DNA from: Alitabrizicola rongguiensis
GTDB taxonomy: Bacteria > Pseudomonadota > Alphaproteobacteria > Rhodobacterales > Rhodobacteraceae
NCBI RefSeq assembly: GCF_021491355.1
Contig: NZ_JAKENF010000001.1
Coordinates: forward strand, 1,054,001-1,118,000
Length of the DNA stretch: 64,000 nucleotides
Direction: 5' to 3'
Of this stretch, positions 42,838 to 53,051 are shown piece by piece (position 1 is the stretch's first letter; the number at the start of each line of letters is the position of its first letter). The position numbers were made by a program, and so were the translations under genes. The notes under the pieces are model-generated. The model was not told the origin of the DNA and did no database searches. It was given only the letters and a program-made list of their open reading frames with translations.

Positions 42838-45099
42838 ATGGAATTTACCCAGGCATTCCCGATTGCAATCATCGATGAGGATTTCGGAAGCCGACAAGCC
42901 GTCGGTATCGGCATGAAGCAGCTTGCGACCGAGATTGAACGCGAAGGGTTTCGGGTCGTCAGCGGTATCAGTTATGCGGACGCGCGCCAGATCGCAGGAA
43001 TTTTCAACAGCGAGTCCTGCTGGATCGTCTCGGTGGATGGCGTGGAAGATCCAACAACCCGCTGGCAAGTGCTCGAAGAAATCCTGTCCACCAAGCGCAG
43101 CCGCAACCAGCGCCTACCCATCTTCCTGTTCGGCAATACGACGACGGCGGACATGGTGCCGGTGTCGGTCCTCCGCCACGCCAACGCCTTCCTGCGGCTG
43201 TTTGAAGACTCTCCCGAATTTCTGGCCCGAGTCATCGCCGAGGCGGCACAGCACTATCTCGACGGACTGGCGCCACCGATGTTCAAGGCGCTGATGGATT
43301 ACACGCTGAAGGCTTCCTATTCATGGCACACGCCGGGCCATGGGGGCGGCGTGGCCTTTCGGAAAAGTCCGGTCGGCCAGATGTTCTACGAGTTCTTCGG
43401 CGAGAATACCCTACGTTCGGACATTTCTGTGTCGGTCGGCAAGATCGGCTCGCTGCTGGACCACACCGGCCCGATCGCCGCCGGAGAGCGCAATGCGGCG
43501 CGGATCTTCGGCACGGACGAGACGCTGTTCGTTGTAGGCGGAACATCGACCGCCAACAAGATCGTCTGGCACGGCATGGTGGGGCGCGGTGACCTCGTGC
43601 TGTGCGACCGCAACTGCCACAAGTCGATCCTGCATTCGCTGATCATGACGGGGGCGACCCCGATCTACCTGATCCCGTCGCGAAACGGGCTTGGGATCAT
43701 CGGTCCGATCTCGAAGGACCAGTTCACACCCGACGCCATCGCGGCCAAGATCGCCGCCAGCCCGTTTGCGCAGGAGACCAGCGGCAAGGTCCGACTGATG
43801 GTGGTCACGAACTCGACCTATGATGGGCTTTGCTACAATGCAGACGGCATCAAGGCATCGCTCGGCGACGCGGTCGAGGTGCTGCATTTCGACGAAGCCT
43901 GGTATGCCTATGCGAATTTTCATCCGTTCTACGACGGATATCACGCCATTTCTTCCAGTCAGTCCGCGCGGTCGGCGCACGCGATCACCTTTGCGACGCA
44001 GTCCACGCACAAGCTTCTCGCAGCGTTTTCCCAGGCTTCGATGATTCATGTGCAGAATGCTGAGACGAAGGCGCTGGACATGACCCGGTTCAACGATGCC
44101 TTCATGATGCACACCTCGACCTCGCCGCAATACGGCATCATCGCCTCTCTCGACGTGGCTGCGGCGATGATGGAACAGCCCGCCGGCCAATCGCTTGTGC
44201 AGGAGACGCACGACGAAGCGCTGGCCTTCCGCCATGCGATGCAAAGCGTGCGCGGGCAGATCGGCGGAAGCTGGTGGTTCGATGTCTGGCAACCGGACGG
44301 ACTCTTGTCCAAGCCCGCGTCCGATCGCGCCAGTTGGTCGCTGAACCCCGGCGACAAGTGGCACGGTTTTGAAGGCCTGGCGGTCGATCATGTGATGGTC
44401 GATCCGATCAAGGTGACGATCCTGACTCCGGGGATGACGGCCGACGGCACCATGCAGGCCGAGGGCATTCCGGCGGTCGTCGTGGTGAAGTTCCTGTCGT
44501 CGCGGCGGATCGAGATCGAGAAGACTGGGCTCTATTCCTTCCTCGTCCTGTTCTCGATGGGCATCACCAAGGGCAAGTGGAGCACCCTGATCACCGAGCT
44601 TCTGAACTTCAAGGAGCTCTACGACGCGAACAGGCCGCTCGACCATGTGCTGCCTGATCTCGTTTCGGCCCATCCCGAGGCCTATGGCGGCATGGGACTG
44701 AAGGATCTCTGCGACCTGATCCACAAGGCGTATCGCAAGGACAACCTGCCGCGCGCCCAGCAGGAGATGTACACGACGCTGCCCGAAATGGCCCTGCGTC
44801 CGGCCGATGCCTATGACCGGCTGGTGAAGGGACGAGTCGAAAGCGTCGAGGTCGATCACCTGATCGGACGCACGCTTGCGGTGATGATCGTGCCATACCC
44901 GCCGGGCATCCCGCTGATCATGCCGGGCGAAAGGATCACGACGGCCACCGCATCCATCCGCGACTATCTGGTCTATGCGCGTGGGTTCGACCGCCGCTTC
45001 CCCGGATTCGAGACCGACATTCACGGCCTGCGGTTTGATGGGACGGGCGCTGACCGACGCTATCTGGTGGATTGCCTGACAGAGGGACAGGGGGAATGA
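42838..45099 (+). CDS. Biodegradative arginine/lysine decarboxylase (AdiA/CadA-like)
   Basis: A 753-residue fold-type I PLP decarboxylase of the Orn/Lys/Arg group. The N-terminal 130 residues are the response-regulator-like wing domain (FPIAIIDEDFGSRQAVGIGM); the core has YSWHTPGHGGGVAFRKSP and the PLP lysine Lys392 in TQSTHKLLAAFSQAS, then the C-terminal domain. The pre-lysine sequence STHKLL matches AdiA rather than the SVHKQ of ornithine enzymes. Family members are induced by acid and low oxygen and consume a proton per turnover. Substrate cannot be fixed: arginine (to agmatine) or lysine (to cadaverine). The ATG at 42838 is preferred to an in-frame TTG two codons upstream. Its stop overlaps the next start as ATGA. 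Confidence 0.82.
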   Translation: MEFTQAFPIAIIDEDFGSRQAVGIGMKQLATEIEREGFRVVSGISYADARQIAGIFNSESCWIVSVDGVEDPTTRWQVLEEILSTKRSRNQRLPIFLFGNTTTADMVPVSVLRHANAFLRLFEDSPEFLARVIAEAAQHYLDGLAPPMFKALMDYTLKASYSWHTPGHGGGVAFRKSPVGQMFYEFFGENTLRSDISVSVGKIGSLLDHTGPIAAGERNAARIFGTDETLFVVGGTSTANKIVWHGMVGRGDLVLCDRNCHKSILHSLIMTGATPIYLIPSRNGLGIIGPISKDQFTPDAIAAKIAASPFAQETSGKVRLMVVTNSTYDGLCYNADGIKASLGDAVEVLHFDEAWYAYANFHPFYDGYHAISSSQSARSAHAITFATQSTHKLLAAFSQASMIHVQNAETKALDMTRFNDAFMMHTSTSPQYGIIASLDVAAAMMEQPAGQSLVQETHDEALAFRHAMQSVRGQIGGSWWFDVWQPDGLLSKPASDRASWSLNPGDKWHGFEGLAVDHVMVDPIKVTILTPGMTADGTMQAEGIPAVVVVKFLSSRRIEIEKTGLYSFLVLFSMGITKGKWSTLITELLNFKELYDANRPLDHVLPDLVSAHPEAYGGMGLKDLCDLIHKAYRKDNLPRAQQEMYTTLPEMALRPADAYDRLVKGRVESVEVDHLIGRTLAVMIVPYPPGIPLIMPGERITTATASIRDYLVYARGFDRRFPGFETDIHGLRFDGTGADRRYLVDCLTEGQGE

Positions 45100-52112: not shown

Positions 52113-53051
52113 ATGGGCCGCGTGGTGGTGGCGTTGGGAGGCAATGCGCTTCTCAAGCGCGGGCAGGAGATGACCGCCGACAACCAGCGCCGGAACGCCC
52201 GGATCGCGGCTGAGGCGCTGGCCCCCCTGTGCCTCGACCATGATACGGTCATCACCCATGGCAATGGGCCACAGGTCGGCATGCTGGCCTTGCAGGAAAT
52301 TGCCTTCGAGGAAGTAGAAGACTACCCACTCGACGTTCTGGGCGCCGAGACAGAGGGCATGATCGGCTACATGATCGAACAGGAACTTGGCAACATCCTG
52401 CCCTTCGAGCATCCGATTGCGACGATCCTGACCATGGTCGAGGTGGACCCCGCCGACCCAGCCTTTGCCGATCCGACAAAGTTCATCGGCAAGGTCTACA
52501 CCGAGGCCGAAGCCAAGGCCGAAGCCGCCGCCAAGGGCTGGACGGTGAAGCCGGACGGCAAATACTGGCGTCGGGTCGTGCCTTCACCGCAGCCCAAGCG
52601 CGTGTTCCAGCTACGGCCGATCCAATGGTTACTCGAAAAGGGCGTGACTGTGATCGCGGCCGGCGGCGGCGGCATCCCGACGATGTATGAACCAGGCAAG
52701 GACAGACATCTGATCGGCGTTGAATGCGTAATAGACAAGGACCGGGCCTCTGCCTTGCTAGCGAGGGAAGTTGGGGCAGATTTCTTTGTCATAGCGACCG
52801 ACGCCGACGCGGTGTTCCTCGACTGGGGAAAGCCGGCTCAGCGCGCGATACGATCCGCGACGCCCGATGCGTTGGACCGCTACCATTTCCCCGCCGGGTC
52901 TATGGGGCCGAAAGTCGAGGCCGCCCAGGATTTTGTCCGAGCCACCGGCAGACGGGCGATCATTTGCGCGCTGGCCGACGTGCCGCAGGCGGTGCGGGGC
53001 GAGAAGGGCACGACCATCGCTCTGGACGTCGGAGAGATGGCCTTTCACTAA
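52113..53051 (+). CDS. arcC: Carbamate kinase
   Basis: ArcC (312 residues) transfers the phosphate of carbamoyl phosphate to ADP, giving ATP, ammonia and CO2; the last ADI step. The Gly-rich amino acid kinase motif [19 protein letters not shown] is at the N-terminus, followed by [16 protein letters not shown], the [10 protein letters not shown] glycine loop and [14 protein letters not shown] [14 protein letters not shown]. The start is one base after the arcB stop (TGA-C-ATG). It appears to be the last gene of the decarboxylase-ADI operon; the porin gene starts 45 bases on, preceded by a strong AGGAGGAG site. Confidence 0.96.

Follow-up and report, generated by a model that had tools for sequence, protein, structure and literature searches.

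A putative arginine deiminase and decarboxylase operon with rhizobial kinship on a tRNA-Thr genomic island of Alitabrizicola rongguiensis

Introduction

The classical arginine deiminase (ADI) operon of Pseudomonas aeruginosa includes arcD. Here we describe a gene cluster in a 64,000-nt stretch of the Alitabrizicola rongguiensis genome (the window, whose coordinates are used throughout) that joins arcA, arcB and arcC to genes for a basic amino acid decarboxylase (gene 1), an ornithine decarboxylase (ODC, gene 2), the antiporter PotE and a solute-binding protein (SBP). The cluster lies on an integrative genomic island and is probably a horizontally acquired operon for amino-acid breakdown and pH defence.

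Related genes are known from Sinorhizobium meliloti (statements on published work, here and below, are drawn from excerpts of the papers cited). FixJ activates arcA1BC, SMa0680 and SMa0682 (PMC13327599), symbiosis requires arcABC and the antiporter SMa0684 according to transposon sequencing (TnSeq; PMC7268258), and SMa0680, SMa0682, arcA1 and arcB are induced in a tolC mutant (PMC2912261); SMa0680/0682 were unchanged in a tme mutant (PMC4960864). One study names odc1 and sma0682 as two decarboxylases and places a putative Adc close to odc1 on plasmid pSymA, apparently by annotation (PMC10385936). In Burkholderia cenocepacia H111, micro-oxia raises an ornithine decarboxylase and the arginine/ornithine decarboxylase next to it, possible counterparts of the window genes (PMC3759415), and Castellaniella is described in the excerpt as being without ArcA and antiporters (PMC12915299). 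A lactobacillus turns 23.4 mM arginine into 19.9 mM putrescine, and its odc-potE is acid-induced and aids acid survival (PMC5838238). In the open-access literature searched, we found no description of this one-unit cluster, and the excerpts of PMC10982811 likewise mention none.

Results

Eight intact plus-strand genes, with start and stop codons that check, occupy positions 42838-53833 (Table 1). Genes 1 and 2 overlap by 4 bp (ATGA), as do potE and sbp, and the remaining gaps are short: 18 bp between gene 2 and potE, 58 bp between sbp and arcA, 26 bp between arcA and arcB, 1 bp between arcB and arcC, and 44 bp between arcC and a porin gene. No terminator-like site lies inside any intergenic gap (a scan of 42500-54100 gave 5 sites, against a shuffled mean of 9.1). 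Because of the tight gaps and the absence of such sites, the eight genes likely form one transcript, with the porin gene likely in the same unit as arcC. The same 42500-54100 region holds a single sigma-70-like site (shuffled mean 3.2), which is on the minus strand, and the idea of such a promoter driving the operon from its front or from within was dropped.

The first-pass annotation had proposed seven genes in this order on one strand with ATGA overlaps or short gaps, and the intact frames, spaced by -4 to 58 bp, bear this out; it overlooked the eighth gene, that of the TorF-type porin. Its family assignments hold for ODC, PotE, SBP, ArcA, ArcB and ArcC and fail for gene 1, which is LdcA-like rather than AdiA-like (see below). 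Gene 2 is 53% identical to E. coli SpeF and falls short of the cut-off of the stricter SpeF model TIGR04301 (907 vs 1310 bits). PotE (54% identity to E. coli PotE, 36% to AdiC) exceeds both PotE cut-offs, that of TIGR04299 narrowly, and scores 342 bits against an AdiC model cut-off of 574. The odc and potE genes, which pass curated ODC and PotE models, are adjacent, and arcA, arcB and arcC are adjacent and co-directional as in an arginine deiminase operon; ArcA is narrowly under the TIGR01078 cut-off (477.4 vs 489.1 bits).

The operon is on an integrative genomic island at tRNA-Thr(CGT), as seen from a duplicated tRNA 3' end, an integrase and an empty site in a relative. An exact copy of the 26-bp repeat at the tRNA end was found just past the window end at window coordinate 64150-64175 (C5 1118150-1118175; L088:1150-1175), which gives an insert of about 30.9 kb. 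In one congener (G006), a single contig carries the left flank (89%) and the right flank (84%) separated by about 150 bp, and the repeat occurs there once, where the left flank ends; this is the empty site. This was seen in one of six congeners; the other five, with a left-flank match of 76-77% and no right-flank match past the repeat, are uninformative. A second integrase-like gene (Phage_integrase; 61377-62720) is found beside the island integrase.

Close copies of the operon proteins were searched for in overlapping genome samples of the genus, family, order and class. In the genus, ODC had a match (E<=1e-3) in four of seven genomes, which outside the own genome was only partial (34-38% identity). 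In the family, ODC was found at E<=1e-150 in one of 295 sampled genomes, the own one, and a check for the same cluster in this lineage, which the first-pass annotation had suggested, yielded nothing. A gene 1 relative was present at E<=1e-100 in 36 of 292 genomes of the order (the other 35 at most 53% identical), and ODC at E<=1e-150 in 11 of 385 genomes of the class (the other 10 at 49-52%). By comparison, ODC identity is 74-80% in Rhizobiales, Burkholderiales and an alphaproteobacterial contig (L014), 67% in L043, and 48-52% in Firmicutes. The island, the lack of close copies in the sampled family, order and class, and the greater similarity to proteins of rhizobia and Burkholderiales together indicate that the operon was acquired horizontally.

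One scan of named genome contigs for relatives of ODC gave 44 loci, with flanks as fetched. Of these, 31 have arcA-arcB-arcC, an amino acid-polyamine-organocation (APC) permease gene on the opposite strand, and then ldcA-odc-potE-sbp. The window's exact gene order is found in two loci, both metagenome contigs: an Alphaproteobacteria metagenome-assembled genome (MAG; L014), in which the ldcA match is in two pieces and the sbp-arcA gap is about 490 bp, and a Burkholderiales MAG (L033), with a gap of about 75 bp before arcA. Paraburkholderia tropica (L035:10001-20438) carries odc-potE-sbp-arcABC, then an AdiA-type decarboxylase gene instead of ldcA. The arcA gene is inside the fetched flanks in 35 of the 44 loci (in L041, which has the ldcA-odc-potE-sbp block, at the stretch edge only). 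L012 and L040 run out where their contigs stop, the flanks of L013 are free of arc genes, and no arc gene was seen in L043, L047, L048 and L052 (the flanks of L043 and L048 are short). Two Clostridiales MAG contigs (L049:4260-8508 and L050:8861-11974) read arcB-odc-arcC, with L050 cut off after odc.

On pSymA of S. meliloti, the map order in rising coordinates is potE, odc, ldcA, an AdiC-like permease gene and arcA. The SMa tags (SMa0680-SMa0697 region) were assigned by map order and descriptions, as the record is unannotated; by map order and PMC10385936, the most likely assignment is ODC for SMa0680, the LdcA-type decarboxylase for SMa0682 and the AdiC-like antiporter for SMa0684. For the extra rhizobial permease, the two examples compared (L084 and L013) have arginine/agmatine antiporters as their best matches, with scores under the cut-off.

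For gene 1, the best PDB match is 6q6i (57% identity over 747 columns), which carries the PDB label 'biodegradative arginine decarboxylase' and which we take to be P. aeruginosa LdcA. Identity is 45% to LdcC, 42% to CadA, 39% to E. coli AdiA and 33% to SpeF. The protein passes none of its six NCBIfam cut-offs (for the AdiA model NF011603, 683 vs 1167 bits). In a maximum-likelihood tree (38 rows out of 70 collected, with a long-branch warning), gene 1 is in a fully supported group with rhizobial and Burkholderiales orthologues, and this group joins LdcA and paralogues from the window's own family with a support of 87/94, under the 95/80 mark. The AdiA-type proteins of L013 and L035 group with E. 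coli AdiA. At 17 positions that separate three lysine decarboxylase (LDC) from three AdiA-type sequences, gene 1 agrees with LDC at 9, with AdiA at 3 and with neither at 5, a comparison that leans to LDC and does not settle lysine specificity. The naming of gene 1 as an AdiA-like arginine decarboxylase was rejected on its 39% identity to AdiA and its placement outside the AdiA branch. On sequence grounds gene 1 is a member of the LdcA subfamily of wing-type decarboxylases, closer to LdcA than to LdcI/C, AdiA or ODC; its substrate is most likely lysine and its product probably cadaverine. LdcA is listed among lysine decarboxylases (PMC7806604). With the corrected name, the predicted product shifts from agmatine to cadaverine.

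The right end of an insertion sequence (IS) is about 211 bp from the start of gene 1; a 96% identical copy is found at C6:376206-377487, plus a fragment on C8. We searched the upstream regions for an anaerobox (consensus TTGAT-N4-ATCAA; positions relative to the estimated gene start) in 46 loci (the 44 plus two S. meliloti plasmid loci), eight of which were dropped as having no >60% ldcA match or no upstream sequence. Upstream of the ldcA orthologue, the anaerobox is perfect in 27 of the 38 usable loci and has a single mismatch in eight more, at -91 to -112, although many of these loci are close relatives and the count does not stand for 38 independent events. L012, L013 and L033 have none there. 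A site with 0-1 mismatch is reached by about 0.1% of shuffled sequences and, as an internal control, was never found upstream of odc (41 loci) or potE (40 loci). Upstream of arcA (37 loci), the best site is perfect in 1 locus and has one mismatch in 17, two in 17 and four in 2; it is at -312 in three Sinorhizobium loci and perfect in L014.

The window has no anaerobox before gene 1 (native 211 bp, best match 4 mismatches) or before arcA (best match 3 mismatches), and FNR/FixK control of the operon is not supported. Over the whole window, 19 matches with <=2 mismatches were found against 14.9 expected, none of them in the IS-bounded stretch before gene 1. It is unlikely that the IS displaced an anaerobox, because the position of the site in 35 relatives falls inside the 211 bp still present. 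Among the proteins of the genome is an Fnr-like one that carries N-terminal cysteines (L107). A small hairpin with a T-rich tail is found about 40 bp before gene 1 (42784-42800), a possible leader structure; such sites are fewer in the scan than in shuffled sequences.

Genome-wide, TIGR00905 matched only PotE itself and one weak 51-bit hit, so that no second strong member of the basic amino acid/polyamine antiporter family was found, and the DcuC family (PF03606) had zero matches; no ArcD-type exchanger was found in these two families (ArcE-type exchangers were not searched), and PotE is the only candidate exchanger of the families searched. The SBP encoded by gene 4 has no permease or ATPase gene of an ATP-binding cassette (ABC) importer alongside, its neighbours being potE and arcA. 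Elsewhere in the genome there are other basic-amino-acid SBP relatives (two at 229-235 bits vs a cut-off of 256), which could be part of ABC importers.

Among the 44 loci, sbp directly follows potE in 37; four loci have no potE match, L040 is cut inside potE, and L047 and L048 have potE without sbp. In Rhizobium sp. NZLR1 the SBP gene is flanked by potE and cax. Gene 4 likely encodes a signal peptide (judged by eye), and its AlphaFold model (mean predicted local distance difference test score, pLDDT, 78.7) matches amino-acid SBPs in the PDB. These matches differ widely in specificity (Asp, Glu, Arg, Gln and Orn among the first 50) yet score alike, so we claim no ligand. Two cysteines and a W-R-x-x-P-A segment are common to all 18 aligned SBP sequences. 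The Asp of 'TDSPV' in AncCDT-1 aligns with a Pro in the window SBP and with Asp or Glu in the other 17 homologues; this position presumably holds the ligand's amino group. We flag this conserved orphan SBP beside PotE, for which we met no description of function.

Other island genes are included in Table 1. The DUF2950 and DUF3300 genes are adjacent (35604-38052), as they are near the same cluster in Rhizobium sp. NZLR1. The island also carries polyphosphate kinase 2 (PPK2; 38083-38973) and an exopolyphosphatase of the Ppx/GppA type (56570-58060), perhaps polyphosphate handling as part of a stress cargo.

Table 1. Features of the operon and its island in the window (window coordinates)
Feature	Position	Strand	Evidence or remark
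tRNA-Thr(CGT)	33149..33224	+	integration target
Left att repeat, 26 bp	33201..33226	+	covers last 24 bp of tRNA-Thr(CGT)
Island genes with relatives beside the S. meliloti pSymA cluster	33766..39579	-	
HlyD-like gene	33766..35001	-	
DUF2950 gene	35604..36536	-	
DUF3300 gene	36526..38052	-	
PPK2	38083..38973	-	
Unnamed gene	39007..39579	-	
IS with integrase-core transposase (rve + HTH_21)	41344..42626	+	ends approximate; imperfect terminal inverted repeats
Native upstream region between IS and gene 1	42627..42837	+	no anaerobox, best match 4 mismatches
Gene 1, wing-type (AAT-fold) decarboxylase, LdcA subfamily, predicted lysine decarboxylase	42838..45099	+	Pfam OKR_DC_1_N, OKR_DC_1, OKR_DC_1_C
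Gene 2, ODC, SpeC/SpeF type	45096..47465	+	NF010092, 919.7 bits vs cut-off 794
Gene 3, PotE putrescine-ornithine antiporter	47484..48821	+	NF007938, 658 vs 409 bits; TIGR04299, 567.6 vs 560
Gene 4, orphan amino-acid-binding protein (SBP_bac_3)	48818..49795	+	Pfam PF00497
Gene 5, arcA, arginine deiminase	49854..51083	+	PF02274, 408 bits; NF002381 over cut-off
Gene 6, arcB, ornithine carbamoyltransferase	51110..52111	+	NF002470, TIGR00658 over cut-off
Gene 7, arcC, carbamate kinase	52113..53051	+	TIGR00746, NF009008 over cut-off
Gene 8, TorF-family putative porin	53096..53833	+	TIGR02001, 69.1 bits vs cut-off 47.15
Tyrosine-type integrase, right end of island	62797..63984	-	Arm-DNA-bind_3, Phage_int_M

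Discussion

We consider it probable that the locus is a horizontally acquired operon for amino-acid breakdown and pH defence, made of the ADI genes, two decarboxylases and PotE. ArcA, ArcB and ArcC would convert arginine to ornithine, ammonia, CO2 and ATP; ODC would decarboxylate ornithine, whether made by ArcB or taken up, to putrescine and consume a proton; PotE would carry putrescine out and a cationic amino acid in; and the LdcA-type gene 1 would perform the same chemistry on another basic amino acid, with lysine the likeliest candidate. Under low oxygen or falling pH, the cell would gain ATP, ammonia and the consumption of protons. The route from arginine through citrulline and ornithine to putrescine, as proposed by the first-pass annotation, is encoded with all its enzymes in one tightly spaced unit, and ATP formation at ArcC and proton use by the decarboxylases follow from established biochemistry. 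Its statement that ArcD is absent stands genome-wide for the two families searched. Its suggestion that PotE replaces ArcD is doubtful: an exchanger confined to ornithine and putrescine would let in ornithine but not arginine, whose uptake would call for a PotE of wider specificity or a different importer. PotE on its own neither stands in for ArcD nor accounts for arginine uptake.

Several points weigh against our proposal. The symbiosis-essential SMa0684 is most likely the AdiC-like gene that is absent from the window, not PotE, and there is no arginine importer within the operon. The residue comparison of gene 1 does no more than lean to LDC. The window operon lacks the anaerobox of most of its relatives (itself counted over many closely related loci) and has an IS just upstream of the remaining 211 bp, and its expression may be altered or lost.

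The two halves of the operon could also serve two independent cycles on one transcript, with ADI for ATP, the decarboxylases and PotE for pH control on external ornithine or lysine, and little ArcB ornithine reaching ODC. We hold this possible, though on the unlikely side. The halves are separate units in Rhizobium and Sinorhizobium, arcA has its own anaerobox with 0-1 mismatch in 18 of 37 loci (two mismatches in 17 more), and L014 has both the wide sbp-arcA gap and a perfect anaerobox before arcA; yet with no ArcD-type ornithine exporter in the two families searched, ArcB ornithine needs another exit or ODC. Far less probable is a committed arginine-to-putrescine (and agmatine) route in which gene 1 is an arginine decarboxylase and PotE takes the role of ArcD. 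It would fit the presence of all the arginine-to-putrescine enzymes in one unit, the lactobacillus that carries out this route (PMC5838238) and the putative Adc near odc1 on pSymA (PMC10385936), but gene 1 is in the LdcA branch while the AdiA-type enzymes of L013 and L035 group with E. coli AdiA, PotE exceeds both PotE cut-offs and is far under that of AdiC, arginine would not enter through a strict ornithine:putrescine exchanger, and SMa0684 is most likely AdiC-like rather than PotE.

The missing oxygen-response site and an IS that stops about 211 bp short of gene 1 would suit an island-acquired operon that is a poorly expressed passenger, as would the proline of the orphan SBP where the other 17 homologues have Asp or Glu. 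We judge this unlikely, since all eight reading frames are intact, L033 has the same gene order and likewise no anaerobox (another promoter type is possible), and the IS may itself provide a promoter. It is highly improbable, in our estimate, that PotE alone serves three pathways as a broad exchanger (arginine or lysine in, putrescine or cadaverine out) to which the orphan SBP hands over substrate or which it gates; if so, the operon would be a self-contained arginine/lysine fermentation device, and SBP-PotE an SBP-dependent exchanger of a new type.

This gene set is already known as a cluster in rhizobia, and with the identical order in L014 and L033 the novelty implied by the first-pass annotation is reduced. 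To this the window adds the arrangement in one unit on a mobile island, the missing oxygen-response site and the conserved orphan SBP. Under the proposed operon function, the locus would be a movable one-unit form of a module for arginine and polyamines at low oxygen that is known from nodule bacteria; the sampled relatives of its host have no close copy. It offers a clean test case for whether ADI ornithine feeds putrescine without ArcD, and for whether one island can confer acid or low-oxygen tolerance.

Comparison with known systems

The closest comparison is with the rhizobial clusters. The window proteins are 76% (LdcA), 79% (ODC), 73% (PotE), 50% (SBP) and 63-68% (ArcABC) identical to those of S. 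meliloti pSymA (L084). Genes for HlyD, PPK2, DUF2950 and DUF3300 are found near the cluster both there and in Rhizobium sp. NZLR1, the latter with a SulP gene nearby as well, and all have relatives on the window's island. The Rhizobium and Sinorhizobium clusters consist of two divergent or separate units, whereas the window has a single unit; they encode an extra AdiC-like antiporter besides PotE, which has no counterpart in the window's genome; and they have an anaerobox and are on plasmids in the L084 and NZLR1 records, in contrast to the window operon on its tRNA island without an anaerobox.

The Clostridiales contigs L049 and L050 also have ODC placed among ADI genes and represent a second, distant ODC-ADI linkage, but their ODC is 48% identical and the fetched stretch has no LdcA, PotE or SBP match. 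For Lactobacillus rossiae D87, metabolite data indicate that ADI takes arginine to ornithine and that Odc/PotE then yields putrescine; the excerpt describes a two-gene odc-potE cluster and mentions no arc genes in it (PMC5838238).

With the classical ADI operon of P. aeruginosa the window shares the families and the arcA-arcB-arcC order, and differs in having no ArcD and in carrying the decarboxylase, PotE and SBP genes ahead of arcABC. The E. coli speF-potE pair is likewise adjacent and co-directional (53% and 54% identity), while in the window the ODC-PotE pair is linked to LdcA and arcABC.

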